This document shows positions 13,958-51,899 of a DNA stretch of 64,000 bases, piece after piece. The notes under the pieces are model-generated. The model was not told where the DNA came from. It made no database searches and saw only the letters and a program-made list of their open reading frames with translations. Numbering within the stretch: the stretch's first letter is position 1; the number at the start of each line of letters is the position of its first letter. The translations under genes were made by a program, and so were the position numbers. This DNA is from Promicromonospora thailandica (GTDB lineage Bacteria > Actinomycetota > Actinomycetes > Actinomycetales > Cellulomonadaceae), in NCBI RefSeq assembly GCF_024171955.1, contig NZ_JAMTCS010000009.1, forward strand, positions 62,001 through 126,000, given 5' to 3'.

Positions 13958-14356
13958 TCAGCGTCGGGTCGAGCGCCGGACGTCCGTCCCGGCCCGCAGG
14001 GCCCGCGGGATCTCGGCGACGTCGTCGACACGCGCGACGAGGCGTTCGACGTCGTCGGCCGGTGCCGGGGAGTCGACGGTGAGCGTGTAGACGATGCCGG
14101 TGGAACGCCACGCGTCGTCGAAGGTGCCGTCGGCCGTCACGGCGACGCCGGTCACGTCGATGCCGAGCTCGCGTGCCTCGCGGAAGGTGTCGTTGAGCAC
14201 GCAGACCGCGACGGCGAGGTGGAGCATCTGCGCACCGTTGCTCGCCGGGTGAGCCACGATGCCGTCGGCCGTCCAGGTGTGGGGGAGGGCGACGCCGTCG
14301 GCGGGGCGGAGGCTACCGGCGCCGGCGGTGACGCCGAAGGATGACAGCGGGTCCAT
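13958..14356 (-). CDS. OsmC-like protein
   Basis: A 132-residue OsmC/Ohr-fold protein. The conserved helix HPASNGAQMLHLAVAVCVLN contains the single candidate peroxidatic Cys, followed by NDTFREARELGIDVTGVAVTADG. OsmC-family members act on organic hydroperoxides, but with only one obvious Cys the activity is uncertain. The ATG at 14356 is used; a GTG at 14371 would add five residues, and neither has a strong ribosome-binding site. It lies just downstream of metH on the same strand (31 bp). Confidence 0.75.
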   Translation of the reverse strand: MDPLSSFGVTAGAGSLRPADGVALPHTWTADGIVAHPASNGAQMLHLAVAVCVLNDTFREARELGIDVTGVAVTADGTFDDAWRSTGIVYTLTVDSPAPADDVERLVARVDDVAEIPRALRAGTDVRRSTRR

Positions 14357-14387
14357 ACCGGCAGCATGCACCCTCGGGCCCCGCTCC

Positions 14388-17300
14388 TCACACGGAGAAG
14401 TACTTCGCTTCTGGGTGATGGAACACGAACGCGTCCGTCGACTGCTCCGGGTGCAGCTGCAGCTCGTCCGACAGCGTGACCCCCACCCGCTCCGGCCGCA
14501 GCAGCTCCACCACCTTGTGCCGGTCCTCCATGTCGGGGCACGCGGGGTACCCGAGCGACATCCGCGCCCCGCGGTAGTCGAGCTTGAACAGACCCTCCAC
14601 CGACGTCGGCTCCTCCGCAGCGAACCCCAGCTCCGCCCGCACGCGCGCGTGCCAGAACTCCGCCAGTGCCTCGGTGAGCTGCACCGACAGCCCGTGCAGC
14701 TCCATGTACTCGCGGTACTTGTTGGCCTCGAACAGCCGACCGGTGTGCGCGGACACGGAGTCCCCGACCGTCACGAGCTGCACCGGCAGCACGTCGAACC
14801 GCCCGGTCTCCTCGACCCACGACCGCGGCCGGATGAAGTCCGCGAGGCACAGGTGCCGGTCGCGGCGCTGCCGCGGGAAGGTGAACCGCAGCCGCTCCGT
14901 CCCCACGGGACCGCCGGAGCCACCGTCGGGCGCGCCGATGCCGGCCAGGTCGCCGTGGTGGGCCACCACCACGGAGTCGCCCTCCGACCACACGGGGAAG
15001 TACCCGTAGACCACCGTGGGGTCCATGATCTGGTCGGTCCGGATCCGCTCCAGCCACTCGGCCAGGCGCGGCCGGCCCTCGGTCTCCACGAGCTCCTCGT
15101 AGGACGCGCCGTCGGCGGACCGCCCCGGCTTGAGCCCCCACTGGCCCATGAACGTCGCGCGCTCGTCGAGGAACGCCGCGTACTCCGAGAGCTGCACGCC
15201 CTTCACGATGCGCGTGCCCCAGAACGGCGGGTCGGGCACCTCGTTGTCCGTGGCGACGTCCGACCGGGCGGGCAGCTCCTCCACGGGCGTCTGCGTCACG
15301 GTCACCACGGAGTGCCGCCGCTTGCGCAGCGCCGGCAGCCCGACGTCGTCCGGGGCGGCGCCGCGCGCGATGCGCACGAGCGGCTCCATGAGCCGCAGGC
15401 CCTCGAAGGCGTCCTTCGCGTAGCGGACGACGCCGGGGAACGCACCGGCGAGGTCGTCCTCCACGTACGTGCGGGTCAGCGCCGCGCCGCCGAGCAGCAC
15501 GGGCCAGCGCTTCTCGAACCCGCGCGAGGCCAGCTCTTCGAGGTTCTCCTTCATCACCACCGTCGACTTCACGAGCAGGCCGGACATGCCGATGACGTCG
15601 GCGTCGTGCTCGATCGCGGCGTCGATCATGGCGCTCACCGGCTGCTTGATGCCGATGTTGACCACCCGGTAGCCGTTGTTCGTGAGGATGATGTCCACGA
15701 GGTTCTTGCCGATGTCGTGCACGTCGCCGCGCACCGTGGCCAGCACGATGGTGCCCTTGGACCCGGAGTCGCCCTCGACCCGCTCCATGTGCGGTTCCAG
15801 CAGCGCGACGGCGGCCTTCATCACCTCCGCCGACTGCAGCACGAACGGCAGCTGCATCTCGCCGCGCCCGAACAGGTCGCCCACCACCTTCATGCCCTCG
15901 AGCAGGTGGTCGTTGACGATGTCCAGCGCCTTCATCCCGGCGCCCAGCGCCTCGTCGACGTCGGCCTCCAGGCCCTTGCGGGCGCCGTCGACGATGCGCC
16001 GCGCCAGCCGCTCGCCGATCGGCAGCGCCGCGAGCTCCGCGGCCCGCTGGTCCCGGATCGCCGCGGCGTCCACGCCCTCGAACAGGTCCAGCAGCTTCGA
16101 GAGCGGGTCGTAGGTCAGGTTGCCGTCGGCGTCCCACTCGCGCTTGTCCCACACCAGGTCGAGGGCCGTCTGCCGCTGCTCGTCCGGGATGGAGGCCAGC
16201 GGCAGGATCTTCGCCGCGTGCACGATCGCCGAGTCCAGTCCCGCGGCGACCGCCTCGTGCAGGAACACCGAGTTGAGCACGGCCCGGGCCGCCGGGTTGA
16301 GGCCGAACGACACGTTCGACACGCCGAGCGTCGTGTGCACGCCCGGATAGGCCTGCGTGATGCGCCGGATCGCCTCGATGGTCTCGATCGCGTCGCGCCG
16401 CGTCTCCTCCTGTCCGGTCGCGATGGGGAAGGTCAGGGCGTCGACGATGATGTCGTCCACCCGCATGCCCCAGTCGCCCACCAGGGTGTCGATCAGGCGG
16501 GAGGCGATCGCGACCTTGTGGTCGGCGGTGCGGGCCTGCCCCTCCTCGTCGATCGTCAGGGCGACGACGGCGGCGCCGTGCTCCACCACCGCGGGCATGA
16601 TCCGGGCGAAGCGCGAGGTGGGCCCGTCGCCGTCCTCGAAGTTCACCGAGTTGACCACGCCGCGGCCGCCCAGCAGCTCCAGGCCCGCGCGGATCACGGC
16701 GGGCTCGGTGGAGTCGATCACGAGCGGCAGCGTGCTCGCGGAGGCCAGGCGGGACACGACGTCGCGCACGTCAGCGACGCCGTCGCGCCCCACGTAGTCC
16801 ACGCAGACGTCCAGCAGGTGCGCGCCGTCGCGCGTCTGGGCGCGCGCGATGTCGACGACGTCGTCCCAGCGGCCCTCCAGCATCGCCTCCCGGAACGCCT
16901 TCGACCCGTTCGCGTTGGTGCGCTCGCCGATGGCGAGGAAGCTCGTCTCCTGCCGCAGCTCCGTGGCCGAGTACAGCGAGGCGACGGCGTTCTCGCGCAC
17001 CGGCTCGCGCGGCGCCACCGGCTGCCCGCCCACGGCCTCGACCACGAGCCGCATGTGCTCCGGCGTGGTGCCGCAGCAGCCGCCCACCAGGCCGAGCCCG
17101 AACTCGCGCGCGAACTGCGTGTGCGCGGCGGCCAGCTCCTCGGGGGTGAGCGGGTAGGTGGCGCCGTCCGGCCCCAGCACCGGCAGGCCCGCGTTCGGCA
17201 TGCAGGCCACGGGCACCTCGGCGTGCTGCGACAGGTGCCGCAGGTGCTCGCTCATCTGCTCCGGGCCGGTGGCGCAGTTCATGCCGATCGCGTCGACGCC

Positions 17301-17981
17301 GAGCGCCTGCAGCGCCACCAGCGCCGCGCCGATCTCCGAGCCCATGAGCATGGTGCCCGTGGTCTCGACCGTCACCGACACGATGACCGCCACCCGCCGC
17401 CCGACCTCCGCCATCGCCTGCCGGCAGCCCGTCACCGCGGCCTTGGCCTGCAGCAGGTCCTGGCTGGTCTCGACGAGCAGCGCGTCCGCGCCGCCCTCGA
17501 TCAGGCCCGCAGCCTGCTCGGCGAACGTGTCCCGCAGGTGTGCGTACGTGGTGTGGCCCAGCGACGGCAGCTTGGTGCCCGGACCCATCGAGCCCAGCAC
17601 CCAGCGCGGCTTCTGCGGCGTCGCGTACGCGTCCGCGCGCTCGCGGGCCAGCGCGGCGCCCGCGCGGGCGAGCTCGCGGATGCGGTCGTCGATGCCGTAG
17701 TCCGACAGGTTGGACCAGTTGGCGCCGAAGGTGTTCGACTCGATCGCGTCCACGCCCACCTCGAGGAACGCGTCGTGGACGCCCGCGATCAGGTCGGGGC
17801 GCGAGACCGTGAGGATCTCGTTGCACCCCTCCAGGTCCTGGTAGTCCGCCAGCGTCGGGTTCGCCGCCTGGATCATGGTGCCCATGGCGCCGTCGGCCAC
17901 GACCACGCGCGTGCGCATGGCGTCCAGGAGGGCTGCGGAGCGGTCGCCCAGGGCGGGCAGGGTCGCGGCGAGTGCGTTCAC
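14388..17981 (-). CDS. metH: Methionine synthase, cobalamin-dependent
   Basis: This 1197-residue enzyme transfers the methyl group of 5-methyltetrahydrofolate to homocysteine through cobalamin. Domains in order: homocysteine-binding (about 1-330; zinc Cys in GMNCATGP and GGCCGTTPEHM), pterin-binding (about 345-640; FLAIGERTNANGSKAF), B12-binding (about 650-900; cap plus DVHDIGKNLVDI, the His being the lower cobalt ligand) and the activation/AdoMet domain (about 930-1197; RLFEANKYREYMELHG). Length is close to E. coli MetH (1227). The GTG at 17981 is supported by TACGCT (17993-17988 on the minus strand) ending 6 nt upstream, implying a leaderless message. There is no room for a cobalamin riboswitch. 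Confidence 0.96.
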   Translation of the reverse strand: MNALAATLPALGDRSAALLDAMRTRVVVADGAMGTMIQAANPTLADYQDLEGCNEILTVSRPDLIAGVHDAFLEVGVDAIESNTFGANWSNLSDYGIDDRIRELARAGAALARERADAYATPQKPRWVLGSMGPGTKLPSLGHTTYAHLRDTFAEQAAGLIEGGADALLVETSQDLLQAKAAVTGCRQAMAEVGRRVAVIVSVTVETTGTMLMGSEIGAALVALQALGVDAIGMNCATGPEQMSEHLRHLSQHAEVPVACMPNAGLPVLGPDGATYPLTPEELAAAHTQFAREFGLGLVGGCCGTTPEHMRLVVEAVGGQPVAPREPVRENAVASLYSATELRQETSFLAIGERTNANGSKAFREAMLEGRWDDVVDIARAQTRDGAHLLDVCVDYVGRDGVADVRDVVSRLASASTLPLVIDSTEPAVIRAGLELLGGRGVVNSVNFEDGDGPTSRFARIMPAVVEHGAAVVALTIDEEGQARTADHKVAIASRLIDTLVGDWGMRVDDIIVDALTFPIATGQEETRRDAIETIEAIRRITQAYPGVHTTLGVSNVSFGLNPAARAVLNSVFLHEAVAAGLDSAIVHAAKILPLASIPDEQRQTALDLVWDKREWDADGNLTYDPLSKLLDLFEGVDAAAIRDQRAAELAALPIGERLARRIVDGARKGLEADVDEALGAGMKALDIVNDHLLEGMKVVGDLFGRGEMQLPFVLQSAEVMKAAVALLEPHMERVEGDSGSKGTIVLATVRGDVHDIGKNLVDIILTNNGYRVVNIGIKQPVSAMIDAAIEHDADVIGMSGLLVKSTVVMKENLEELASRGFEKRWPVLLGGAALTRTYVEDDLAGAFPGVVRYAKDAFEGLRLMEPLVRIARGAAPDDVGLPALRKRRHSVVTVTQTPVEELPARSDVATDNEVPDPPFWGTRIVKGVQLSEYAAFLDERATFMGQWGLKPGRSADGASYEELVETEGRPRLAEWLERIRTDQIMDPTVVYGYFPVWSEGDSVVVAHHGDLAGIGAPDGGSGGPVGTERLRFTFPRQRRDRHLCLADFIRPRSWVEETGRFDVLPVQLVTVGDSVSAHTGRLFEANKYREYMELHGLSVQLTEALAEFWHARVRAELGFAAEEPTSVEGLFKLDYRGARMSLGYPACPDMEDRHKVVELLRPERVGVTLSDELQLHPEQSTDAFVFHHPEAKYFSV

Positions 17982-17987
17982 CCGGGC

Positions 17988-18053
17988 AGCGTAAGCCTTG
18001 GCCCGACGACGACGCCGTGGGTGCCCGGCGGGCGGACCGTCGCCCGCTACCGT
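17988..18053. promoter_or_regulatory. Divergent leaderless promoters of metH and the SDR gene
   Basis: TACGCT on the minus strand (17993-17988) ends 6 nt before the metH GTG, and TACCGT on the plus strand (18048-18053) ends 6 nt before the SDR ATG at 18060. The spacer between start codons is only 78 bp. Confidence 0.55.
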
Positions 18054-18059
18054 GCCTGC

Positions 18060-18839
18060 ATGACGACGTACGACTACCTGGCCTCCCTGTTCTCCCTGTC
18101 GGGCCGCACCGCCGTGGTGACCGGCGGCAGCTCCGGCATCGGCCGCGCCATCGCCGAGGCCCTCGCGCAGGCCGGGGCGCACACCGTGCTCGTGGCCCGC
18201 GGCGCCGACCGGCTGGAGTCGGTCGCCTCCGGCCTGCGGGAGCAGGGCTGTGACGTCTCGACGGTGGTCGCCGACCTCTCCACCCGCGCAGGCATCCACG
18301 CGGCCGCCGACGGTGTCGTCGCCGCGGCGGGGGAGCCGGACATCCTCGTCAACAGCGCCGGCATCAACCTGCGGCCGCACCTGGGCGACGTCGACGAGGC
18401 CACCTGGGACCTCACCCTCACCGTGAACCTGGAGGCCCCCTTCCTGCTGGGTCAGCGGTTCGCCCCCGGCATGGCCGCGCGGGGGTTCGGGCGGCTCATC
18501 CACATCTCCTCGCAGCAGGCGCACCGGTCGTTCGTCGACAGCGGCGTGTACGGCGTCTCCAAGGGCGGCCTCGAGTCGCTGGCCCGGTCGCAGTCCGAGG
18601 CGTGGTCGGCGCGCGGCGTCACCGCCAACACCCTCGTGCCGGGTTTCGTGCTCACCCCGCTGAACCAGCGCCTCCAGGACGACACCGAGCGTGTCGCCGC
18701 CCTGGCCGCGCGCACCACGGTGGGCCGCAACGGTCTGCCCGAGGACTTCGCCGGGGCCGCCGTGTTCCTGGCGAGCGCCTCCTCGGCGTACGTCACGGGG
18801 CACTCGCTGTTCGTGGACGGCGGCTTCTCGGTGCACTGA
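18060..18839 (+). CDS. SDR-family NAD(P)-dependent oxidoreductase
   Basis: A 259-residue classical short-chain dehydrogenase. The cofactor motif TGGSSGIGRAIAEAL is near residues 21-35, NSAGINLRP gives the NxAG motif, the catalytic Ser lies in HISSQQAH and the active site is YGVSK. The C-terminal FVDGGFSVH is typical. It resembles gluconate 5-dehydrogenase and 2-deoxygluconate dehydrogenase relatives, but the substrate is uncertain. The ATG at 18060 sits 6 nt after TACCGT. It is divergent from metH with no evident functional link. The 3' flank is a repeat array ending in a strong hairpin. Confidence 0.9.
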   Translation: MTTYDYLASLFSLSGRTAVVTGGSSGIGRAIAEALAQAGAHTVLVARGADRLESVASGLREQGCDVSTVVADLSTRAGIHAAADGVVAAAGEPDILVNSAGINLRPHLGDVDEATWDLTLTVNLEAPFLLGQRFAPGMAARGFGRLIHISSQQAHRSFVDSGVYGVSKGGLESLARSQSEAWSARGVTANTLVPGFVLTPLNQRLQDDTERVAALAARTTVGRNGLPEDFAGAAVFLASASSAYVTGHSLFVDGGFSVH

Positions 18840-18865
18840 CCGGCCACGAGCTGGGCTGCGCCCCT

Positions 18866-19050
18866 GAGATCGGTCGGTTGCCCGGTGGCGCGCTGTGAGT
18901 TCGGTCGGTTGCCCAGTCGCGCACCGTGAGTTCGGTCGGTTGCCCAGTCGCGCACCGTGAGTTCGGTCGGTTGCCCAGTCGCGCGCCGTCAGGTCGGTCG
19001 GTTGCCCCGAGATCGGTCCATCGGGGGACCGATCTCGAGGCAACCGACCG
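18866..19050. repeat. Five 31-bp tandem repeats ending in a long inverted repeat
   Basis: Units begin at 18866, 18897, 18928, 18959 and 18990, spaced exactly 31 bp, each with core GGTCGGTTGCC. The last unit runs into a hairpin: arm 18993-19019 pairs with roughly 19026-19050, the right arm reading GGCAACCGACCGAAC, an inverted copy of the core. It lies between the SDR stop and the next promoter, so the hairpin may stop transcription, although there is no T-tract. Confidence 0.85.
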
Positions 19051-41830: not shown

Positions 41831-42286
41831 ATGCCCGAATCGCCGCTGGTCAGCAGGTCAGCCACCGTGCCGGGCTGGTTGGCCCGGGTCGGACTCGCCT
41901 ACGGCGTCGTGGGGCTGAGCGTGGTGCCCGTGCTCGTGGTCGGCGCCCTCGTCACGTGGTGGATGCAGTCGTGGACCTGCGCCGAGCAGGAGTGGGGCTG
42001 CCTGGAGCAGGGCATCACCATGTGGGCCGGTCTGGCGATCCTCGCCGCGGTGCTGCACATCGTCGTCGCGATGCGGGCCGGGCTGGGTGTCGTGCACGGC
42101 CTCGTGGTGGTCGCCGTCGCCGCCGTCGCGGCCAACGTCGCGCCCGCGCTGGGCGCCTGGCTCCTGCTCGCGGTGGGACCGGCGGTGGCCGCCATCCTGA
42201 CCGCGTCCGGCCCGAGCCGGCGGCAGCGGCTGGTGCTGGTCGGCTTCGGCGTGATGCTGCTCGTGGGCACCGTGCTGGTGCGCTGA
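41831..42286 (+). CDS. Four-helix membrane protein, function unknown
   Basis: A 151-residue integral membrane protein. Hydrophobic helices occupy about 18-43, 63-85, 90-112 and 120-148; [15 protein letters not shown] precedes the first and a short RRQR loop precedes the last. The loop [15 protein letters not shown] has two Cys that could form a disulfide outside. The family is not recognised. It is separated from parC by the AGATCT array and shares a strand with the Pat gene 76 bp downstream. Confidence 0.75.
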
Positions 42287-42349
42287 GCCGGGGGCCCGCC
42301 GCTCCGGTGCCCGGGCGTCGTCTCCCGGCCCGGTGTCGGTGCCGGTCGT

Positions 42350-42355
42350 TAGCCT
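42350..42355 (+). promoter_or_regulatory. -10 box TAGCCT, leaderless start of the Pat-type gene
   Basis: TAGCCT ends 7 nt before the GTG at 42363. Confidence 0.5.
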
Positions 42356-42362
42356 TGGTGCC

Positions 42363-45230
42363 GTGGATCAGCCAGAAGCGGTCGGGACGGTGCGCCTGCC
42401 CTATCCGACCGGGTACCCGGTCGAGTGGGAGGCCGACGTCGTGCTGCGCGACGGGACCACCACCCACGTGCGTCCCATCCGGCCCGAGGACGCGGACGCG
42501 CTCCAGCGCTTCCAGATGGCCCAGTCGGAGCGCTCCACCTATCTCCGGTTCTTCGCGGCGCTGCAGCGCATCCCGGACCGCATGCTCACCCAGCTCGTCA
42601 CGGTCGACCACGTGCGGCGCGTGGCCCTGGTCGCGGTCCGGCCCACGGGCCCGGGCGCGGCCCGTGAGGCGGGCCGAACAGACGAGCCCGCTGCAACAGC
42701 CGCCGCCGGCGAGGACATCGTCGGCGTCGCCCGCTACGACGTGATCGACGACCGCCCCGGGCAGCGGACCGCGGAGGTCGCCTTCAACATCGCGGACGCC
42801 ATCCAGGGTCAGGGCCTCGGGTCGGTACTGCTGGAGCACATCGCCGCCGCCGCGCGCGAGCGGGGCGTACACCGGTTCGTCGCCGAGGTGCTGCCCCAGA
42901 ACCGCGCCATGCTGGGCGTGTTCCGCGAGGCGGGCTACGCCGTCGAGCAGCACCTGGACGACGGCGTGGTGACGGTCGCCGTCGACCTCGACCCCACCGA
43001 CCGGTCACGGGAGGTCATGGCCGACCGCGAGCACCGCACCGAGGCCCGGTCGATGCAGGCGCTGCTCTCGGCCCGGCGGGTGCTCCTCGTCGGGCCCGCG
43101 ACCGGCGGCGGCATCGACGAGCTGCTGGCCGCGCGCGTCCGCGAGGCGCACGCCGCCGACCCCGGCGACACCGAGCTCCTGGTGCTGGGCGAGCACCTGA
43201 CCTGGGCGGACCTCACCGGCGCCGACCCAGGCGCCCAGAACCAGACCCAGAACCAGAACCAGGCCCAGACCCCGTCCACCGTCGACCTCGCCGTCGTCGC
43301 CGCCCCGCCGGACGAGGTGATCGACGTCGTCGGCCGGCTGCGCGGCACGGGGGCGCGGGGCGTCGTCGTCCTCTCGGCGGGCTTCGCCGAGGCGGGGCCC
43401 GACGGCGTCGCGCGCCGCCGCGAGCTGCTGCGCACCGCGCACGGCGCAGGCATGCGGGTCGTGGGACCGGCCAGCTACGGCCTGCTCACCACCGTGCCGG
43501 GGGCGAGCCTGCGCGCGAGCCTCGCCCTCACCGCCCCGCGACCGGGGCGGGTGGGCCTGTTCAGCCAGAGCGCGCCCGCCACGGTCACGGCCGTCGAGAC
43601 CGTCAAGCGCCGCGGCCTGGGCCTGTCCACGCTCGTCTCCGCGGGGCACCGGGCCGACGTGTCCGGCAACGACGTCATGCAGTACTGGCAGGACGACCCG
43701 CACACGGACGTGGCCCTCCTCTACCTCGAGACCCTCGGCAACCCGCGCAAGTTCTCGCGCATCGCGCGGCGGCTGGCCCAGGTCAAGCCGGTGGCCGTGG
43801 TCGTGGCGGGCAAGCACGGCCGCGTGGTGCCGCCCGGGCACACCGTGCGCACCACGCGCGCGCCGCGTCGGATGCTCGACGAGGTGCTCCGGCAGTCCGG
43901 CGTGATCCGCGCCCGGAACACGCACCAGCTCATGGACGTCGCCCAGGTGCTGGCCCACCAGCCGCTGCCGTCCGGCAGCCGGGTGGGCATCCTCGCCGGC
44001 TCGCCGTCGCTCGCGGCCCTAGTCACCGACGCGGTGGCCGCCGCCGGCCTGACGGTCGGCGCCGTCGAGTCGCTCTCCCCGGGCGCACCCGACGCCGAGG
44101 TCGCGGCCGCCGTGGACGCCCTCTACGGGCCCGACGTGTGCGACGCCGTCGTGGTCGTCTCCGTACCCGTGGTGCTGCCGCGTACCGACGCCATCGCCCG
44201 CGCGGTCACGCAGGCCGCCGCACGCACCGGCCGCACCACGGTGGTGAGCGCGCTCGGCCTGCACGGGCTGCCCGACGAGCTCGCCGACGGCGACGTCCGC
44301 GTCCCCGCCTTCTCCACGCCCGAGGACGCCGTCTGGGCCCTGGGCGCGGTCGTGCGCTACGCGCAGTGGAGCGCGCAGGACCACGGCAGCCCCGTGCGCC
44401 CGCCCCTGCGGGAGGGGCTGTCGGACGGCGCCGCGCGCGCCCAGGCGCGCACGCTCGTCGAGTCCCTGCTCACCGAGGCCGCGCAGCGCCCCACGGCCGA
44501 GGAGGGCGCGACGCCGGAGGGCGACCCGCCCGACGACGGGCTCCTCCTGGACCAGACCGCCGCCGCCGAGCTGCTGGCCTGCTACGGCCTGACCCTGTGG
44601 CGCTCGATCAGCGTGCGTACGGCCGCCGAGGCCGTGGCCGCCGCCGACGAGCTCGGCTGGCCGGTGGCCCTCAAGATCGCCGCCCCCGCCCTGCGCCATC
44701 GGGCCGACCTGGGCGGCGTGCGCCTCGACATCGCCGACGCCGAGGACCTCGTCGAGGACGCCGAGCGCATGCTCGCCGCGGCGTCGGCCCTGCTGCCCGC
44801 GCCCGACCCCGTGCTGGAGGTGCAGGCCATGGCACCCGCCGGCGTGGCGTGCGTGGTGCGCTCGGTCGAGGACGAGCTCTTCGGCCCCGTGGTGTCGTTC
44901 GGCCTGGCGGGCGACGCCGTCGACCTGCTCGACGACGTCACCCACGGCGTGCCGCCGCTCACCGACGTGGACGTGGCCCGCATGGTGCGCGGGGTCCGGG
45001 CCGCGCCCCGGCTGTTCGGCTACCAGGGCGCACCCGCGGCCGACGTCGCGGCGCTGGAGGACGTGCTCGCCCGCGTGTCCGTCATGGCCGACGACCTGCC
45101 CGAGCTCGCCTCCCTCGAGCTGTACCCGGTGGCGGTCGCCGAGCACGGCGCGTCCGTGCTGCACGCGACGATCCGCCTGCGCCCGGCCGAGCGCCGCACC
45201 GACGCCCCGCGCCGCGCCCTCCAGGTCTGA
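42363..45230 (+). CDS. GNAT/NDP-forming acyl-CoA synthetase fusion, Pat-type protein acetyltransferase
   Basis: A 955-residue fusion. Residues 20-215 form a GNAT domain (DGTTTHVRPIRPEDADALQ; CoA loop region AFNIADAIQGQGLGSVLLEH). Residues 225-700 match the CoA-binding and CoA-ligase parts of NDP-forming acyl-CoA synthetases (GLFSQSAPATVTAVE, STLVSAGHRADVSGNDVMQYW). Residues 720-950 are an ATP-grasp domain (GWPVALKIAAPALRHRADLGG). The GNAT-first order is known from Streptomyces PatA, the reverse of E. coli PatZ. It probably acetylates lysines of acyl-CoA synthetases; the His of the phospho-His loop could not be confirmed. A Q/N/T-rich insert (NQTQNQNQAQ) interrupts the CoA-binding domain near residue 300. 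Confidence 0.85.
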   Translation: MDQPEAVGTVRLPYPTGYPVEWEADVVLRDGTTTHVRPIRPEDADALQRFQMAQSERSTYLRFFAALQRIPDRMLTQLVTVDHVRRVALVAVRPTGPGAAREAGRTDEPAATAAAGEDIVGVARYDVIDDRPGQRTAEVAFNIADAIQGQGLGSVLLEHIAAAARERGVHRFVAEVLPQNRAMLGVFREAGYAVEQHLDDGVVTVAVDLDPTDRSREVMADREHRTEARSMQALLSARRVLLVGPATGGGIDELLAARVREAHAADPGDTELLVLGEHLTWADLTGADPGAQNQTQNQNQAQTPSTVDLAVVAAPPDEVIDVVGRLRGTGARGVVVLSAGFAEAGPDGVARRRELLRTAHGAGMRVVGPASYGLLTTVPGASLRASLALTAPRPGRVGLFSQSAPATVTAVETVKRRGLGLSTLVSAGHRADVSGNDVMQYWQDDPHTDVALLYLETLGNPRKFSRIARRLAQVKPVAVVVAGKHGRVVPPGHTVRTTRAPRRMLDEVLRQSGVIRARNTHQLMDVAQVLAHQPLPSGSRVGILAGSPSLAALVTDAVAAAGLTVGAVESLSPGAPDAEVAAAVDALYGPDVCDAVVVVSVPVVLPRTDAIARAVTQAAARTGRTTVVSALGLHGLPDELADGDVRVPAFSTPEDAVWALGAVVRYAQWSAQDHGSPVRPPLREGLSDGAARAQARTLVESLLTEAAQRPTAEEGATPEGDPPDDGLLLDQTAAAELLACYGLTLWRSISVRTAAEAVAAADELGWPVALKIAAPALRHRADLGGVRLDIADAEDLVEDAERMLAAASALLPAPDPVLEVQAMAPAGVACVVRSVEDELFGPVVSFGLAGDAVDLLDDVTHGVPPLTDVDVARMVRGVRAAPRLFGYQGAPAADVAALEDVLARVSVMADDLPELASLELYPVAVAEHGASVLHATIRLRPAERRTDAPRRALQV

Positions 45231-45262
45231 ACGTCAGGTCTGAACGCCAGGGCTGACCGTCA
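45222..45262. repeat. 13-bp tandem repeats across convergent stop codons
   Basis: CAGGTCTGAACGT, CAGGTCTGAACGC and CAGGGCTGACCGT follow one another, then a partial fourth copy. They span the stop of the Pat-type gene and reach the stop of the convergent VWA gene. No hairpin terminator was seen here. Confidence 0.65.
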
Positions 45263-47770
45263 GGACTGCGCCGGGTCACCGCCGAAGGCGGCGAACACGT
45301 CGGTCATGACCTCGCCGATGTCCTCCGCGCTCGTGGCGTCGTAGAACGCGCCGCCCGAGGCCGTGGCGATCTCCTCGAGCGCCCCCGTGGCCGAGGCCGC
45401 GTCGGCCCCGTACGCCACCGTGTACACCTGCACGCGGTGGTCGTCGTTGTTCAGCGCGGGATCACGCAGGTGCGTCAGCACGTCACGCAGGCCGCCCGGG
45501 TCCTTGGTCTCCTCGCCGTCGCTCAGCACCACCACGGCGTTGATCCGGTCGGCCTCGTGCAGGTCGTGCGCCTGGTCGAAGGCGGTGGTCACCGCGTCGT
45601 ACAGCGCGGTGTCGCCGTCCGCCCGCAGCGCGCCGACCACGCATCCGCGCAGCTCGGCGGCCGGCACCTGCGCACAGTCCGGGTCGACGCACCCGTCGGT
45701 CTGTCCCGCCGCGCAGGCGGGCAGCTCGCCGGCCTCGGCCAGGTCGGTCGCGGGCAGCGCGCCGCGCACCTCGTCGGAGAACACCGTGATCCCGAGCCGG
45801 TCCTGCGGGGTCAGCATGCCGATCCCGAGGTTCGCGGCGTCCTGCGCGAGCTCCAGCTTGCTGGCACCGCCCGTCCCCGCGGAGTCGCCCATCGAGCCGG
45901 AGACGTCGACCACCAGCGTCACGCTCGCGCGCCGCTGGATGCCCACCCAGGCATCCAGCATCCGGTCGAGCACGTCGGCGGGCGGCGCGGGCAGCAGCTG
46001 CTGCTCCTGGCCGGGCCGCACACCGAGCGTGCCCTCGAGCACGTCGGTGGGGTGGGCGGCGTCGTCGGGGTGGCGGAAGCCGAGCTCGACGAACTTCTCC
46101 TGGGCGTCGTCCTCGCGCAGGTACGCGTAGAAGTCCTCGGCGGCCGCCCTTACCTCGCCGTCCGGCTGCCCGAGCACGACGAAGGGGTGGTCCAGCGCGA
46201 GGGACCCCTCCGTCGGGTACACGGCGGTCAGGGGGAGGTCCGGCGGGTCGGTGCAGCGCAGCTCCTCGATCTGCCCGCCCTCGGGCGCGTTGCAGTTGTA
46301 CAGGTGGATGAGCTGCTCCTGGACCACGACGGCGTTCAGCGGGCGCTCGCCGTCGACGCCGTTCGCCTGCCCCTCGTCGTAGATCTCCCGCATGAAGCCG
46401 GTCGCCTCGAGCCCGTAGCGCTGGACCGACTGCTCGATGCCGTGCACGAAGCGCCCCACCGCGGGGTCGGCCACGAGGCCGTCGACCTCCGCCCAGTCGG
46501 GCTCGCCGGCGAGCGCCTCGCCGTGCCCTGCCGCCGACATGGCCGCGTAGTAGGCGGCGACGGTGGCGGCGAGGCCGGACGACGAGTTGTGCGGGTTGTC
46601 GCGACCGAGCACGAACGCGGTGTCGGTGGACAGCTCGCGCAGGCGTGCCCAGTCCTCGGCGCCCTCGGGGAACAGCTCGGCCCGGTCCGCCGTCGGGACG
46701 GCGATCGCGAGGACGCTGCTGGTCACGGGGCCGAGCCGGCCGCTGTCCGGCACCGTCTCCGGGTGGTCGGCGGACACCTGGTCCACGGACATGCTCGACG
46801 TCGGCAGCCAGACGTCGGGCCGGTTCTCGACGGTGACCGCGGGATCGACGCCCCGCCAGCCGGCGGCGAGGGCGGCGGCTGCTACCCCCGAGGTCAGCCC
46901 GGTGACCTGCACGTCCACGCAGCGTTGGCCCACGCCACGGCCGGCCTCGAAGTCCTGGGCCAGCTCGGCGACGAGCTCGTCCTTCTCCGTGGACACCGTG
47001 ACGTCCAGGACCACGCAGTCCCCGGGGGCCGCGAGCCACGGCAGTGCCCCGCCCCGCAGCCCCAGGACGGCCAGCACGCCGACCACCGACGCGAGGGCGA
47101 GCACCGTGACCGGCTTCCAGCGGCGGCCGACCAGCCCGGAGAGCGCGGCACCGACCGCCCGCAGCCGGGGTTCGGCGCGGTCCAGCAGCGAGGGGGCCGG
47201 GAGCAGGGCACGGATCGTGTCGGAGGGCACAGCGACGGCGTCGCGGTGCTCGCCCGTGTCCGTGGTCTTCAGGAGCATCCCCATGGCGTCGCTCGTGCCC
47301 GACTCGATGAGGGGGCTGCCGCTGAAGCCGGGCTGGAGGGGCACGCCCCCGGTGGAGTCGATCTGCAGGTTGCCGGACGCGACCTCGTGGGCCACGACGG
47401 AGTGGTTCCACGCCCCTTCGGCACGGTCCGGGGGGTAGCCGTAGACGTCGACCTGGGCCTGGACGCGCGGGTCGACCAGGCGCAGCACGGTGAGGTCGCG
47501 CGGCGGCGCCGCGGTGCGCGGGACGCGGAGCACGGCGACGTCCGCGCCGGCGTCGTCGACGACGACGCGGGCGACGCGGGTGCGGCCGTCCGCGCGGAAC
47601 GTCAGGGCCACCTGGGAGCCCTCCGCGATCACCTCGTTCCCGCGCGCCTCGCCCAGCCTGCGCAGCACGTGGTGGCAGGTCACCACCGTCCGCGGCCCGA
47701 CGGCGAAACCCACGCCGGCCGGCCTGTTCCCGTCACCGACGTCGACCAGGGCGAAGCCGGGGCCGCTCAT
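45260..47770 (-). CDS. Trypsin-like protease / transmembrane / solute-binding-like / VWA fusion
   Basis: An 836-residue protein. Residues 1-195 form a trypsin-like fold with a readable triad: His34 (TCHHVL), Asp77 (AGADVAV) and Ser150 (PGFSGSP). It lacks a signal peptide. One transmembrane helix lies at about 221-240, preceded by GRRWK, so the protease faces the cytoplasm and the rest is outside. Residues 250-600 resemble an extracellular solute-binding domain; residues 618-830 are a VWA domain with MIDAS DVSGSMG (Asp622). Eight Cys, all beyond the helix, suggest disulfides. The gene overlaps a Trypco1 gene by 4 bp. I know of no characterised homologue with this domain order. Confidence 0.88.
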   Translation of the reverse strand: MSGPGFALVDVGDGNRPAGVGFAVGPRTVVTCHHVLRRLGEARGNEVIAEGSQVALTFRADGRTRVARVVVDDAGADVAVLRVPRTAAPPRDLTVLRLVDPRVQAQVDVYGYPPDRAEGAWNHSVVAHEVASGNLQIDSTGGVPLQPGFSGSPLIESGTSDAMGMLLKTTDTGEHRDAVAVPSDTIRALLPAPSLLDRAEPRLRAVGAALSGLVGRRWKPVTVLALASVVGVLAVLGLRGGALPWLAAPGDCVVLDVTVSTEKDELVAELAQDFEAGRGVGQRCVDVQVTGLTSGVAAAALAAGWRGVDPAVTVENRPDVWLPTSSMSVDQVSADHPETVPDSGRLGPVTSSVLAIAVPTADRAELFPEGAEDWARLRELSTDTAFVLGRDNPHNSSSGLAATVAAYYAAMSAAGHGEALAGEPDWAEVDGLVADPAVGRFVHGIEQSVQRYGLEATGFMREIYDEGQANGVDGERPLNAVVVQEQLIHLYNCNAPEGGQIEELRCTDPPDLPLTAVYPTEGSLALDHPFVVLGQPDGEVRAAAEDFYAYLREDDAQEKFVELGFRHPDDAAHPTDVLEGTLGVRPGQEQQLLPAPPADVLDRMLDAWVGIQRRASVTLVVDVSGSMGDSAGTGGASKLELAQDAANLGIGMLTPQDRLGITVFSDEVRGALPATDLAEAGELPACAAGQTDGCVDPDCAQVPAAELRGCVVGALRADGDTALYDAVTTAFDQAHDLHEADRINAVVVLSDGEETKDPGGLRDVLTHLRDPALNNDDHRVQVYTVAYGADAASATGALEEIATASGGAFYDATSAEDIGEVMTDVFAAFGGDPAQS

Positions 47771-48096
47771 CGGTCCCCGGCCGACCACGTGAGCCGGACG
47801 GTGAAGTTGACCTCGGCCGACCCGCTGGAGACGACGACGGACGTGCCCGCGGTGAGCTTGAGACCGAACTCGACCTCCGCGGTGTCCGGCCCGGCCGACC
47901 GTGCCCAGTCCGCGAGCGTCCCCAGCACCGGCCGCAGGTCGTCCAGCGCCGCGTCGAGGGTCGCTCCGGCGCGGCCGACGACCGATCCGGTCCGGGCCGC
48001 GGGCACGAGCTCCCCGGACAGCGGCCGGGAGACCTCGACGAGGAAGGAGTCGCCGTCGTCCAACGGCATCTCGATGACCTGGATCTGACTCGACAT
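47767..48096 (-). CDS. Trypco1-domain protein (trypsin co-occurring domain 1)
   Basis: A 109-residue protein filled by one Trypco1 domain: VIEMPLDDGDSFLVEV at the start, then VGRAGATLDAALDDLRPVLG and the diagnostic C-terminal VEFGLKLTAGTS plus AEVNFTVRLTW. The domain is named for its frequent linkage to trypsin-like proteases in predicted signalling or conflict systems; its biochemical role is not established. It has no signal peptide or membrane segment, so it would share the cytoplasm with the partner protease. The ATG at 48096 follows GGAGG. Its stop overlaps the protease fusion start (ATGA). TACAGT on the minus strand (48137-48132) is a candidate -10 box. Confidence 0.87.
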   Translation of the reverse strand: MSSQIQVIEMPLDDGDSFLVEVSRPLSGELVPAARTGSVVGRAGATLDAALDDLRPVLGTLADWARSAGPDTAEVEFGLKLTAGTSVVVSSGSAEVNFTVRLTWSAGDR

Positions 48097-48215
48097 GTCC
48101 GATTTGCCTCCACGGCCGGGTTTTTCCTGAAACTGTAGTGGGGGCCACAGCGCGCGTCTCGTCCACCTGTGCGTCATGTGGACCCGACCTCCGCGCGGAT
48201 GGGAGGATTCTCCCC

Positions 48216-48794
48216 GTGCCCCAAGCCCCTACCGATTCCCGTGCAGACCTGACAGCCCACCTCCACCGGGCCGGCTACTACCCCGAGCTCGTCGCCGACG
48301 TGCTCGACGTGGCGCTCGCCGACGAGCAGGTGGTGTCCCACCTCGTCCAGGCCGAGACGACGTTCGACTCCGAGGTGCGCCGGCACCTGACGGTGCTGGT
48401 GCTCACGCCGACCCGCCTGGTCACCGCCCACGTGGACGACCACGCGGGCGCCGACCCCGCCACGCCCGGCTCGGCGTCCGCCACGACCGAGGTGGTGCCC
48501 CTGCGCGAGATCCGCTCCGTGGCGCTCACGCACGTGATCGCGGGCCCGGAGCGCTACCCGCACGCGGGCGGCACCCGCGAGGTCACGCTCGCGGTCGGCT
48601 GGGGGGCCGTGTCCCGCGTGGACCTGGAGCCGGCCACCTGCGTGGACCCGAACTGCACCGCCGACCACGGCCTGACCGGCCAGGTGACGCCCGACGACGT
48701 GGTGGTGCGGGTCTCCGGCGAGGCCGAGGGCGACGCCGCGGTCCGCGCCGCCGTGGACTTCGCCCGCGCCCTGTCCCGGGCCACGTCGGCGTGA
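48216..48794 (+). CDS. DUF5998-family protein
   Basis: A 192-residue soluble actinobacterial protein. It begins LTAHLHRAGYYPELVADVLDVALADE, has a beta-rich core (HLTVLVLTPTRLVTAHVDDH) resembling a PH-like fold, a short motif DPNCTADHG with one Cys, and a helical end. Function is unknown. Start is GTG 48216, with GGGAGG at 48201-48206. It precedes the phosphodiesterase gene by 7 bp; this neighbour pair is conserved in related actinobacteria as far as I recall. Confidence 0.8.
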   Translation: MPQAPTDSRADLTAHLHRAGYYPELVADVLDVALADEQVVSHLVQAETTFDSEVRRHLTVLVLTPTRLVTAHVDDHAGADPATPGSASATTEVVPLREIRSVALTHVIAGPERYPHAGGTREVTLAVGWGAVSRVDLEPATCVDPNCTADHGLTGQVTPDDVVVRVSGEAEGDAAVRAAVDFARALSRATSA

Positions 48795-48801
48795 GGGCTG
48801 C

Positions 48802-49995
48802 GTGAGCGCACCGCACCTGCCCGCCGGCCTGGTCGCGCCGACCTACGACACGACGAGCCTGGCCGCCGTGCTGCCCGCCGTCGCCGGGGCGCTGGGCCAC
48901 GACCTCGCCACGGCCACGGGTCTGACCGCAGCGGGCAGCCGGGCGGCGCTCGGCCTGCCCGAGGCCGACCGCGCCGTCGTGGTGCTCGTGGACGGCCTCG
49001 GCATCCGCAACCTCGCCGAGCGCGGGGGGCACGCGCCGTTCCTGCGCGGCCTGCTGCGGGAGCGGGACGCCGACGCCGCGACGCTCACCTCCAGCTTCCC
49101 GTCCACCACCGCCGCCGGCCTGAGCATCCTCGGTACCGGCACCGCGCCCGGGCGCACGGGCATGCTCGGCTACACCCAGCGCGACCCGGCGACCGGGCGG
49201 CTGGCCGCCGTGGTGCAGTGGAAGGACCTCGGCGACCCGGCCGACGTGCAGCGGGAGCCGACCGTCCTGGAGACCCTCGCCGCGGCCGGCGTGGCGGTCT
49301 CCGCCCCGGGGCCCCGGAAGTTCGCCGGGTCCGGGATGTCGCAGGCCGCGCTGCGCGGCCCGGTGCACGTGGCGGCCGAGACGTTCGAGCAGCGGGTCGA
49401 CGCGACGGCCGCCGCGCTGCGCGGGCCCGGCCCGGAGCGCCGCCTCGTCTACCTGTACCAGGGCGACGTCGACAAGACGGGCCACGGCTTCGGCTGGGAC
49501 TCGTGGCAGTGGGGCGACGCGCTGGAGGCGACCGACCGCGAGCTGCGCCGGCTGCTGCGCAGCGTGCCCCGCGGCACGCTCGTGGTCGTCACGGCGGACC
49601 ACGGCCAGATCCGGGCCGACCTGGGCACGCAGTGGGACGTCGCCACCGACCCGGAGCTGCGGCCCGGGGTCGCCCTGGTGGGCGGGGAGCCGCGCGCGCT
49701 GCACGTCTACGCCGAGCCCGGCACCGACCCGGCCGACGTCGCGGCGCGGTGGACGGGCCGGCTGGGCGACCACGCCGTCGTCCTGCTGCGCGAGCAGGCC
49801 GTGTCCGGCGGATGGTTCGGGCCCGTGGCCGAGCACGTGCTGCCCGCGGTCGGCGACGTCGTGGTGGCGATGACCGGTGCGGCGACCGTCGTCGACTCGC
49901 GCGTGCACTCGCCCGCCGCCCGGGCCCTGCCCGGCGTGCACGGCTCGCTGACCCCGCACGAGATGCTCGTGCCCCTTCTCGTGGCCGTCGCGTAG
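48802..49995 (+). CDS. Alkaline phosphatase-superfamily nucleotide pyrophosphatase/phosphodiesterase
   Basis: A 397-residue metalloenzyme. The metal Asp lies in VVVLVDGLGIRNL, the Thr nucleophile in SSFPSTTAAGLSILGTG, and further ligands in YLYQGDVDKTGHGFGWDS and VVVTADHGQI. This fits the type I phosphodiesterase/nucleotide pyrophosphatase family. No signal peptide is seen, so it is probably cytosolic. Start is GTG 48802. It is followed 25 bp later by thymidine kinase, with which it likely forms an operon. Confidence 0.87.
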   Translation: MSAPHLPAGLVAPTYDTTSLAAVLPAVAGALGHDLATATGLTAAGSRAALGLPEADRAVVVLVDGLGIRNLAERGGHAPFLRGLLRERDADAATLTSSFPSTTAAGLSILGTGTAPGRTGMLGYTQRDPATGRLAAVVQWKDLGDPADVQREPTVLETLAAAGVAVSAPGPRKFAGSGMSQAALRGPVHVAAETFEQRVDATAAALRGPGPERRLVYLYQGDVDKTGHGFGWDSWQWGDALEATDRELRRLLRSVPRGTLVVVTADHGQIRADLGTQWDVATDPELRPGVALVGGEPRALHVYAEPGTDPADVAARWTGRLGDHAVVLLREQAVSGGWFGPVAEHVLPAVGDVVVAMTGAATVVDSRVHSPAARALPGVHGSLTPHEMLVPLLVAVA

Positions 49996-50020
49996 ACCCC
50001 GTCATCCAAGGAGCGCCACC

Positions 50021-50674
50021 GTGGCCGAGCTCGTCTTCTTCTCCGGGACCATGGACTCCGGAAAGTCCACCCTCGCCCTGCAGACCGACCACAACTACCG
50101 GGCCCGCGGCCGGGAGGGGCTGATCTTCAGCCGCGGCGACCGGGCGGGCGAGGCGCGCGTGTCCAGCCGCCTCGGGCTGGCCGTCGCGGCCCACGAGGTC
50201 ACCGACGACACCGACTTCTGGGTCGAGATCGCCGCGCTGCGCGCGTCCGGCCAGGCCGTGGACTACCTGGTGTGCGACGAGGCGCAGTTCTACTCGCCCG
50301 GGCAGGTGGAGCAGCTCGCGCGCCTGGTGGACGAGATGGAGATCGACATCTTCGCCTTCGGCATCACCACCGACTTCCGCACGCGGCTGTTCCCCGGGTC
50401 GGCCCGCCTCATCGAGCTGGCCGACCGCATCGAGGTGCTGCAGGTGCAGTCGCTGTGCTGGTGCGGTGCGCGCGCCACGCACAACGCACGCACCGTCGAC
50501 GGCGTCATGGTCACCGAGGGCGAGCAGGTCGTCATCGGCGACGTGGGCGAGCGCGAGCCCGCCGAGGTGGCCTACGAGGTGCTGTGCCGCAGGCACCACA
50601 TGCGGCGCATGACGGCGCTCACGGCCCGGCGCCGCTCCGTGCAGGACTCGCTGCAGGACTCGCTCTGGGGCTGA
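50021..50674 (+). CDS. tdk: Thymidine kinase
   Basis: A 217-residue type II thymidine kinase. The P-loop is GTMDSGKST (residues 9-17), the lid is RLIELADRIEVL and the flap/zinc region has CWCG and CRRHHM. It phosphorylates thymidine using ATP in nucleotide salvage. Start is GTG 50021 with AAGGAG at 50009-50014. A short direct repeat (CAGGACTCGCTG) occurs at the 3' end. It is convergent with sepH. Confidence 0.93.
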   Translation: MAELVFFSGTMDSGKSTLALQTDHNYRARGREGLIFSRGDRAGEARVSSRLGLAVAAHEVTDDTDFWVEIAALRASGQAVDYLVCDEAQFYSPGQVEQLARLVDEMEIDIFAFGITTDFRTRLFPGSARLIELADRIEVLQVQSLCWCGARATHNARTVDGVMVTEGEQVVIGDVGEREPAEVAYEVLCRRHHMRRMTALTARRRSVQDSLQDSLWG

Positions 50675-50690
50675 GCGCCGGACCCTCCGG

Positions 50691-51899
50691 TCAGATCTCG
50701 GGACGCGACCCGAAGACGATCTCGTCCCAGCTCGGCACCTGCGCGCGCGACTTGCGGCCGCGCTTGGGCGCCGGCCGTCTGGACGGCGCCTGCTCGGCCG
50801 GCGGTTTCTCGGGCGCGGGGGCCGGGTCGTCCGCGGGCGGCTGAGCGGTGTCGGCCGCAGGGTCGGACGACGTCCGGTCTGCGGAGCTCGGCGCATCCCC
50901 GGCGTCAGGGCCGACGGCGTCGTCCTGCGGCGCGTCGGCCCGCCCGGTCCGGGCGCCGGACGGCGCACCGCCCGCCGGCGCGGGGATCTCCCACTGGCTC
51001 GGCGCCTCCCACTCCAGGTCGGCGGGGGAGTCCGGCACCCGCACGGGCGGCATCGTGGCGCGCGCGCCGCCGCGGCGTGCGCCGATGTCGACCACGGCGG
51101 CGGACTGCTCTGCCGGCTCGTCGTCCGCGGGCGCGCCGGGGCCGTCCGGCTCCAGCAGGTCGGGCAGGTCGAGGCCGGGGTCCGAGCGCCGGGCCGGGCG
51201 GTGGCCGCGCCGCTCCGAGAGGTTGTCGAGCAGCAGGTCGGTGTCGTCCGGCTCGGGCGGTACCGGGCGCGACGGCTGCCCCGGTCGGTGAGGCGGCAGC
51301 GCGGACACGCCGGCCAGGGCCGGGCGGTCCTCGTCCTGCGGCAGGCCGAGCCAGCGCGCCTCGTCGTCGAGCGGCTCGACGAACCCGCCGCGCGGCTCGA
51401 GCGACCAGCGCGCCACCCGCGGTCGGTCGGCCGCCGTGAACTCGACCTGCACGATCCACGGGTGGGTGCCCTCGCGGGTGGCGGTCCACACCGCGTCGTC
51501 GGGCCGCACGCCGCGCGACCTCAGCCGCTCGTCGGCGACCTCGCCGAGGGTGGTCGCGGCGTCGTCGTCCGTGCGCACGGCCTTGGCGCGCACGCGGGAG
51601 ACGGAGTGCTCGCGCTCCGAGATCACGGGGTACTCGAAGCGCCGCACGTGCTCGACGGGCAGGCCGGAGGCCTCCGCGAGCTGCTCGACGGTCTCGCCCG
51701 CACGCAGGCGCGCCTGGATCTCGCGGGGGCGCAGCGCCGACTCCTCCTGGGCCCGGATCGACTCCATGCGCGGCCGGTCGCCTCGGACGGCGGCGCGCAG
51801 GGCATCGGTGATGGGCAGGGTGCTCTGGGCGCCGTCGCGCGCGACGAGGACGAGCCGCTCGCCGTCCTCGTGCAGCCGTACCAGCTCCAGCTCGTCCAT
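50691..51899 (-). CDS. sepH: Septation protein SepH (DUF3071)
   Basis: A 402-residue FtsZ regulator of actinobacteria. The N-terminal DUF3071 domain (1-170) begins MDELELVRLHEDGERLVLVA and includes a helix-turn-helix-like unit (RPREIQARLRAGETVEQLAE). A long disordered Pro/Asp-rich linker (about 190-380) leads to the conserved tail RAQVPSWDEIVFGS. SepH assists Z-ring assembly at cell division. The ATG at 51899 follows AGGACTGGC. The 3' end converges on tdk. Confidence 0.93.
   Translation of the reverse strand: MDELELVRLHEDGERLVLVARDGAQSTLPITDALRAAVRGDRPRMESIRAQEESALRPREIQARLRAGETVEQLAEASGLPVEHVRRFEYPVISEREHSVSRVRAKAVRTDDDAATTLGEVADERLRSRGVRPDDAVWTATREGTHPWIVQVEFTAADRPRVARWSLEPRGGFVEPLDDEARWLGLPQDEDRPALAGVSALPPHRPGQPSRPVPPEPDDTDLLLDNLSERRGHRPARRSDPGLDLPDLLEPDGPGAPADDEPAEQSAAVVDIGARRGGARATMPPVRVPDSPADLEWEAPSQWEIPAPAGGAPSGARTGRADAPQDDAVGPDAGDAPSSADRTSSDPAADTAQPPADDPAPAPEKPPAEQAPSRRPAPKRGRKSRAQVPSWDEIVFGSRPEI

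Follow-up and report, generated by a model that had tools for sequence, protein, structure and literature searches.

A predicted single-pass trypsin-SBP-VWA receptor-protease encoded with Trypco1 in Promicromonospora thailandica

Kaur et al. 2020 (PMC7159879) introduced the name Trypco1 for a domain that, in the part of the paper available to us, co-occurs with trypsin in VMAP systems, and the available part of PMC10907252 terms it an adapter. A tested function for Trypco1 was found in neither of these two portions. Here, we analyzed a 64,000-nucleotide stretch of the Promicromonospora thailandica genome (RefSeq assembly GCF_024171955.1, contig NZ_JAMTCS010000009.1, positions 62,001 to 126,000), hereafter the window. 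Its minus strand carries at 45260–48096 a two-gene unit composed of a Trypco1 gene and a gene for an 836-aa protein that joins a trypsin-like domain, a transmembrane helix, a solute-binding protein (SBP) domain, and a VWA domain.

Several described systems resemble this unit in part. EACC1-caspase system 4, as presented in the accessible text of PMC7159879, likewise consists of two genes in actinobacteria, a small 5′ one and one with an N-terminal peptidase. Some of its caspase proteins carry transmembrane helices with an extracellular PBP domain downstream, and its variable C-terminal modules include a MoxR-independent vWA. The window unit differs in having a trypsin and no caspase-type peptidase, in having as its upstream gene Trypco1 (no hydrophobic segment by Kyte-Doolittle scan) rather than EACC1 with its conserved transmembrane helix, and in combining SBP and VWA in one ectodomain. 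In VMAP ternary systems (PMC7159879, in the portion available), Trypco1 adjoins an N-terminal trypsin and VWA domains are present, whereas in the window the VWA domain sits in the same polypeptide and is predicted to lie outside. The 836-aa protein had no VMAP-C match at E 0.1, while the same profile detected VMAP-C in the relative locus L152. The host genome gave no VMAP-C match, in a search in which 14 control genomes were silent too, and the window's contig, C9, gave no MoxR-type match, the PF07726 matches (five above cut-off, one below) lying on contigs C1, C3, C8, C11, C21, and C10. The accessible part of PMC10732462 mentions bacterial STING-trypsin fusions, which also join a trypsin-like peptidase to a sensor, although the sensor there is STING and not an SBP-VWA part that spans the membrane; four such loci among the relatives described below have Trypco1 alongside. 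Actinomycete proteins called "substrate-binding and VWA domain-containing" in plasmid annotation have the same SBP_bac_11 and VWA domains, mostly behind an N-terminal anchor, but most of their gene models are headless and the few with a head have PNP or HTH rather than trypsin. DegS and HtrA share the protease-domain fold, but the window protein has no PDZ match (Pfam scan), is predicted to hold its protease on the cytoplasmic side, and shares about 20% sequence identity with them. PADLOC assigned no named system to the unit; its hits were trypsin-type only (best RT-Protease_XI, 1.4e-07) and were read as reflecting the shared trypsin domain, not membership. We found no description of a trypsin-SBP-VWA protein in the literature searched, which is weak evidence of absence as most subscription papers fell outside the search. 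The initial annotation of the window, made from the sequence alone, had called the system a candidate undescribed one; this is partly supported, as the search gave no paper on the fusion but the available text of PMC7159879 already has a close caspase-transmembrane-PBP parallel. The unit is a variant put together from known modules.

Comparison with relatives indicated that Trypco1 probably belongs to the live trypsin and not to the SBP-VWA sensor. A trypsin-like head in front of a transmembrane-SBP-VWA part was known from seven proteins in the relatives examined, namely those of the window, Promicromonospora soli, Antribacter gilvus, Antribacter soli, Nocardioides turkmenicus, and two family members (L025 and L029). 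The two encoded with Trypco1 (window and P. soli) have the triad H-D-S, while the triad columns of the five without it read D-D-C, D-D-C, H-M-V, E-G-G, and R-D-E. The Trypco1 profile, at E up to 10, found no match in the 13–16 kb around these five and detected 4/4 positive controls; two of the five genomes (G068 and G054) have Trypco1 elsewhere, beside a trypsin-STING gene. The heads of the five are considered trypsin-like because of their alignment, as Pfam at 0.01 left the head unmatched in L023, L025, L029, and L096 (L024 was outside that scan). Every one of the 56 Trypco1-adjacent trypsins aligned keeps H-D-S (47 from the class, seven from the family, the window, and P. soli). With 56/56 triads intact beside Trypco1 and 0/5 without it, Trypco1 therefore appears to go with an active protease, and this association is the best clue here to what Trypco1 may do. 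The triad count omits an apparent remnant in L033, which no trypsin follows, and two sub-cut-off matches in G013 lie outside the family census. The initial annotation had coupled Trypco1 to the SBP-VWA sensor and had named occurrence of Trypco1 apart from such fusions in close relatives as a refutation. It does so occur, with other trypsin fusions in the same genus and family, and the five proteins above have no Trypco1 nearby; the coupling is not supported as stated.

Trypco1 neighborhoods were surveyed more widely. In a family sample, Trypco1 scored above cut-off in 10/150 genomes. Its neighbors there were trypsin-transmembrane-SBP-VWA proteins (2), trypsins with C-terminal hydrophobic segments (2), a trypsin-CHAT protein (1), and, in four more, a trypsin joined to a nucleoside-deoxyribosyltransferase-like part and prok_STING (L034:4941-6986, L035:5092-7136, L036:4612-6657, and L037:5057-7187; PF20300 at 2.5e-15, 1.9e-15, 2.2e-14, and 1.2e-12). 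At L033:6708-6959, the trypsin is missing and Trypco1 seems fused to sequence similar to the terminal part of the L032 TPR-type gene; this locus looks like a remnant. A class sample gave 112 matches in 70/394 genomes. The best-scoring 84 of these were considered and the 28 weakest left out; 80 loci were fetched, the others being the window's own copy, G723:C71, G660:C45, and G709:C65. Our own Trypco1 profile had a gene model in 64/80 loci; census positions were taken from the class-level search instead. A trypsin domain lay directly downstream of Trypco1 in 47/80 loci; in the other 33/80, the trypsin profile detected none on that strand over the next 700 bp. The view that Trypco1 is solely trypsin-linked, as the initial annotation had it, is accordingly too narrow. 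A hydrophobic segment followed the trypsin in 16 of the 47, which suggests a membrane-spanning form in L143 and 15 other class loci; in L143:3816-7520, the open frame of the Trypco1-linked trypsin additionally matches nSTAND1 and, weakly, beta-propeller domains. In L152, a Trypco1-trypsin with VMAP-C stands beside an AAA/MoxR-like ATPase gene. These arrangements support Trypco1-trypsin as a putative cassette that relatives join to other modules (STING, CHAT, VMAP). Among the loci without detected trypsin, L196:47-3316 has Trypco1 downstream of an NB-ARC-TPR gene (Pfam-checked). L178, L185, L190, L199, L202, and L210 look similar to L196, the Pfam check having been made in L196 only. In L192–L195, where trypsin was likewise not detected, an SBP gene (in L193, SBP_bac_1 at E 9e-14) immediately precedes Trypco1, a second link of Trypco1 to solute-binding proteins.

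Within the window, the 109-aa Trypco1 gene (47767–48096) comes first and overlaps the gene for the 836-aa protein (45260–47770) by 4 bp (47767–47770), both on the minus strand; by our gene calls, the P. soli versions overlap by 1 bp. Trypco1 matched PF19493 at E 7.4e-23 (81.4 bits vs. a cut-off of 24.6) and the NCBIfam CU044_2847 family (NF041216), and, through the overlap, it neighbors a trypsin-like peptidase gene. Its structure model, built from two sequences, had a predicted local distance difference test score (pLDDT) of 50 and was unusable. Pfam placed Trypsin_2, SBP_bac_11, and VWA in that order in the large protein, each above cut-off. The trypsin-like domain covers residues 19–156 (47303–47716; PF13365, E 8.2e-15, 56.2 bits vs. 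27.6), with the modeled fold reaching about residue 190. Its His-Asp-Ser triad is complete: His34 (47669–47671), Asp77 (47540–47542), and Ser150 in PGFSGSP (47321–47323) line up with H, D, and S, respectively, in an alignment of 54 further trypsins adjacent to Trypco1. The AlphaFold2 model of residues 1–190 had pLDDT block means of 62–84, and this part matched DegS/HtrA structures in Foldseek (best E 9.8e-10, DegS on top). A match to the MarP family was weak (E 0.00045, 19.4 bits vs. a cut-off of 250).

The single predicted transmembrane helix follows GRRWK at residues 220–238 (47057–47113; mean hydropathy 2.41 over 19 residues). Behind it lie SBP_bac_11 at residues 255–566 (46073–47008; E 7.6e-15, 55.7 bits vs. 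25), whose structure model was unreliable (pLDDT mostly <50), and a VWA domain at about residues 613–826 (45293–45934), both predicted to be outside. Pfam VWA matched residues 720–822 (4e-09) and VWA_2 residues 618–676 (4.7e-08), and the domain boundaries were taken from the secondary structure of the model. The metal ion-dependent adhesion site (MIDAS) motif DVSGSMG at residues 622–628 (45887–45907) is complete, with D622, S624, S626, and the distal T721 and D751 invariant in six aligned homologues. Cys32 precedes the helix and eight cysteines follow it, the same nine being present in P. soli. The overlap, triad, helix position, MIDAS, and cysteine distribution had all been read correctly in the initial annotation, the observations of which are confirmed and the interpretation of which is partly supported.

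The predicted topology, with the trypsin head and Trypco1 inside and the SBP-VWA ectodomain outside, is well supported by homologues. It agrees with the initial annotation and rests on headless SBP-VWA homologues, which look exported, and on the PNP and HTH heads found on the same ectodomain; heads of these kinds in the place of the trypsin would be expected to stay in the cytoplasm. Further support comes from the positive charges before the helix (three K/R and no D/E in residues 205–219) and from the cysteine distribution, and export of the SBP_bac_11 domain is likewise predicted from the helix charges and homologues. Gene models outside the window came from a home-made caller, and hydrophobic segments were called throughout by Kyte-Doolittle scan instead of a trained topology or signal-peptide predictor. 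Across the full family set, 9/221 genomes matched P0002 at E 1e-15; at E 1e-20, matches were found in 30/297 genomes of an order sample and 101/394 of a class sample. Most matches cover the SBP-VWA part only. Heads were sought in part of the loci from the matching class genomes, and the head counts are not frequencies. A hydrophobic segment preceded SBP-VWA in 39/54 gene models from order- and class-level relatives (L038–L092); two of the 39 have more than one segment and one (L091) is PNP-headed. Some of the remaining 15 are truncated, and four (L048, L049, L058, and L075) have lipobox-like starts.

The L091 ectodomain matched 7/179 sampled genomes from the G528 genus, which is probably Streptomyces, at E 1e-40, and three of the seven carry PNP_UDP_1 heads (L223:289-3384, L224:1498-4125, and L225:658-3369; Pfam E 9.3e-20, 3.2e-19, and 2.1e-13). 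The rest comprise one HTH_31 head (L226:1498-4232), two headless proteins, and one model too short to tell (L227). A second HTH_31 head occurs in L231:1296-3629, the two scoring 27.3 and 27.5 bits vs. a cut-off of 27, and a third, in the split gene L232:1205-3739, is sub-cut-off at 22.7 bits vs. 27. When 98 SBP-VWA segments were placed in a tree, the seven proteins with trypsin heads grouped with a Shimodaira-Hasegawa-like approximate likelihood ratio test (SH-aLRT) value of 93, below the 95 starred by the tool, and those with PNP or HTH heads grouped elsewhere (100); the fewest head changes were three. The tree held 98/104 hits among 125 pooled proteins and came from a quick search with several long branches flagged. 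Together, this supports the SBP-VWA ectodomain as a probable receptor module attached to different cytoplasmic heads.

Other genes near SBP-VWA proteins were also recorded. A similar gene lies downstream of the PNP-headed proteins in L223–L225, an M48 peptidase by Pfam in L225. L226 and L232 each have, just upstream, a gene for a 73–74 aa protein, which in L226 has one hydrophobic segment and no Pfam match. At L028:6906-11131, a lipoprotein-like SBP-VWA gene is followed by a gene without a Pfam match and then a TelA gene, and at L066:1510-4755 a protein kinase gene (Pkinase at E 2.9e-38) immediately precedes an SBP-VWA gene.

The unit occupies an accessory stretch (45231–48215) between a Pat/acyl-CoA-synthetase-like gene ending at 45230 and a DUF5998 gene starting, by our gene call, at 48216, both on the plus strand. 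It was present at this site in 2/13 Promicromonospora genomes (the window's and P. soli). The flanking genes directly adjoin in 10/11 other congeners, leaving an empty site; in the eleventh, L104, the site is rearranged with the Pat gene inverted. A search of 47900–48400 gave no sigma-70-type promoter and no terminator, and no Rfam family reached its gathering score in 42000–51000. Plasmid carriage was without evidence, as seven plasmid records matched and none covered 80% of the query. Elsewhere in the window of this 5.38 Mb genome, two very long open frames on opposite strands overlap at 14259–19043, one encoding 1526 aa and the other 1551 aa.

Between the window and P. soli, the large protein is 71% identical with a ratio of nonsynonymous to synonymous substitution rates (dN/dS) of 0.44, and Trypco1 is 84% identical with a dN/dS of 0.157. 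The SBP and VWA domains are 78% identical with a dN/dS of 0.31–0.34, and the linker-helix part has a dN/dS of 1.07 over 56 codons. Judged by these sequence comparisons, selection on the unit is purifying; this selection between two species, together with the domain E-values, excludes chance. The dS of the large gene (0.48) and of Trypco1 (0.64) overlaps or slightly exceeds that of five flanking genes (0.32–0.47). The congener nearest to the window by two neighboring genes (L100) lacks the unit, and P. soli lies elsewhere in that tree (12 rows; the truncated L108 dropped from 13). With regard to a recent transfer into the site, the dS values and the tree suggest that the unit has long been present and was lost in some genomes, or that it was transferred along with its flanks.

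On balance, we consider it probable that the unit encodes a single-pass outside-in receptor-protease with Trypco1 as the cytosolic regulatory partner of the protease. The SBP and VWA domains would lie outside the cell, where they would bind a small ligand, a protein or envelope component, or both, the VWA domain through its MIDAS metal site. Binding would alter the assembly or position of the receptor, and the single helix would relay this change inward, where the cytoplasmic trypsin-like (HtrA-fold) protease would cut one or more internal proteins. Trypco1 may have a holding or inhibitory, or an assembly, role on the active protease, which we favor over a substrate role. Several points weigh against this interpretation. 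The live form is known from one orthologous locus in two species, with very few independent cases within the architecture, and the 56 trypsins are mutually related and were compared without a matched set of Trypco1-free conflict trypsins. Two class loci (L151 and L219) have trypsins with intact-looking motifs and no adjacent Trypco1; a live trypsin therefore does not always seem to need an adjacent Trypco1. Conversely, since 33/80 class loci lack a detected downstream trypsin, the role of Trypco1 cannot be protease regulation alone. In the available part of Kaur et al. (PMC7159879), trypsins in the vWA effector position are nearly all inactive, unlike VMAP-associated ones, so that position, and not Trypco1, may underlie the triad pattern. 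The trypsin head also diverges faster than the SBP and VWA domains (58% identity, dN/dS 0.65), and the model of the 836-aa protein is poor outside the trypsin domain (overall mean pLDDT 52).

A different use for the same architecture, as a receptor for envelope or nutrient status whose output is regulated proteolysis and not conflict or defense, is a real if rather doubtful possibility. SBP-VWA relatives are common in the class, at the frequency given above, one SBP-VWA group lies near TelA, and the HTH heads resemble gene regulation. DegS, the best Foldseek match in fold only, is an envelope-stress protease. However, Trypco1-trypsin also partners with the conflict-type modules prok_STING, CHAT, VMAP-C, and nSTAND1, and the unit is patchily present at an otherwise empty site. 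PNP domains, too, are listed among conflict systems in the accessible parts of PMC7159879 and PMC8195603.

It is unlikely that Trypco1 is instead a substrate, as the initial annotation suggested it may be, cut by the activated protease and then carrying the signal. Overlapping genes would fit such a pair, and an association with triad-intact trypsins is equally expected of a substrate. Still, loci such as L196, with Trypco1 after an NB-ARC-TPR gene and no detected trypsin, speak against a substrate role, and the higher conservation of Trypco1 than of the protease (84% vs. 58%) is no less compatible with an interaction partner.

We regard as more improbable still that the trypsin-like domain is a peptide-binding scaffold only, with catalysis unneeded. 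The five same-architecture relatives without Trypco1 do have broken triads, so that the fold there would serve something else or nothing, but both Promicromonospora copies keep the triad intact despite the fast divergence of the domain.

Least probable is the reverse topology, with the trypsin exported and SBP-VWA cytoplasmic: HtrA-fold proteases often work outside the cytoplasm, the MarP-family match points weakly the same way, and in Trypco1-free relatives an N-terminal hydrophobic stretch precedes the trypsin-like domain (the scan shows it clearly for L023, L096, and L029 and less strongly for L025, and at 1.6 flags none for L024, a near-copy of L023), but neither the 836-aa protein (Kyte-Doolittle scan) nor Trypco1 has such a segment, and the charges before the helix, the exported look of headless SBP-VWA proteins, and the HTH and PNP heads all oppose it.

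Returning to the outside-in receptor-protease with Trypco1 as its regulatory partner, sensor and output appear to be separable modules, because heads swap on one ectodomain and partner modules swap on the Trypco1-trypsin cassette. We put forward, as a tentative extension that could well fail, an actinomycete class of single-pass receptors in which an SBP-VWA ectodomain is combined with exchangeable heads (live trypsin with Trypco1, PNP-type nucleosidase, or HTH) and Trypco1 is a safety partner dedicated to the live protease head. If true, bacteria would have in these receptors an outside-in switch for setting off effectors within the cell. Because Trypco1 is associated with intact triads, its role becomes directly testable: it may restrain, assemble, or feed a live protease. 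The SBP-VWA ectodomain shared among trypsin, PNP, and HTH heads points to modular receptors, through which a signal from outside could be connected to effectors inside the cell.

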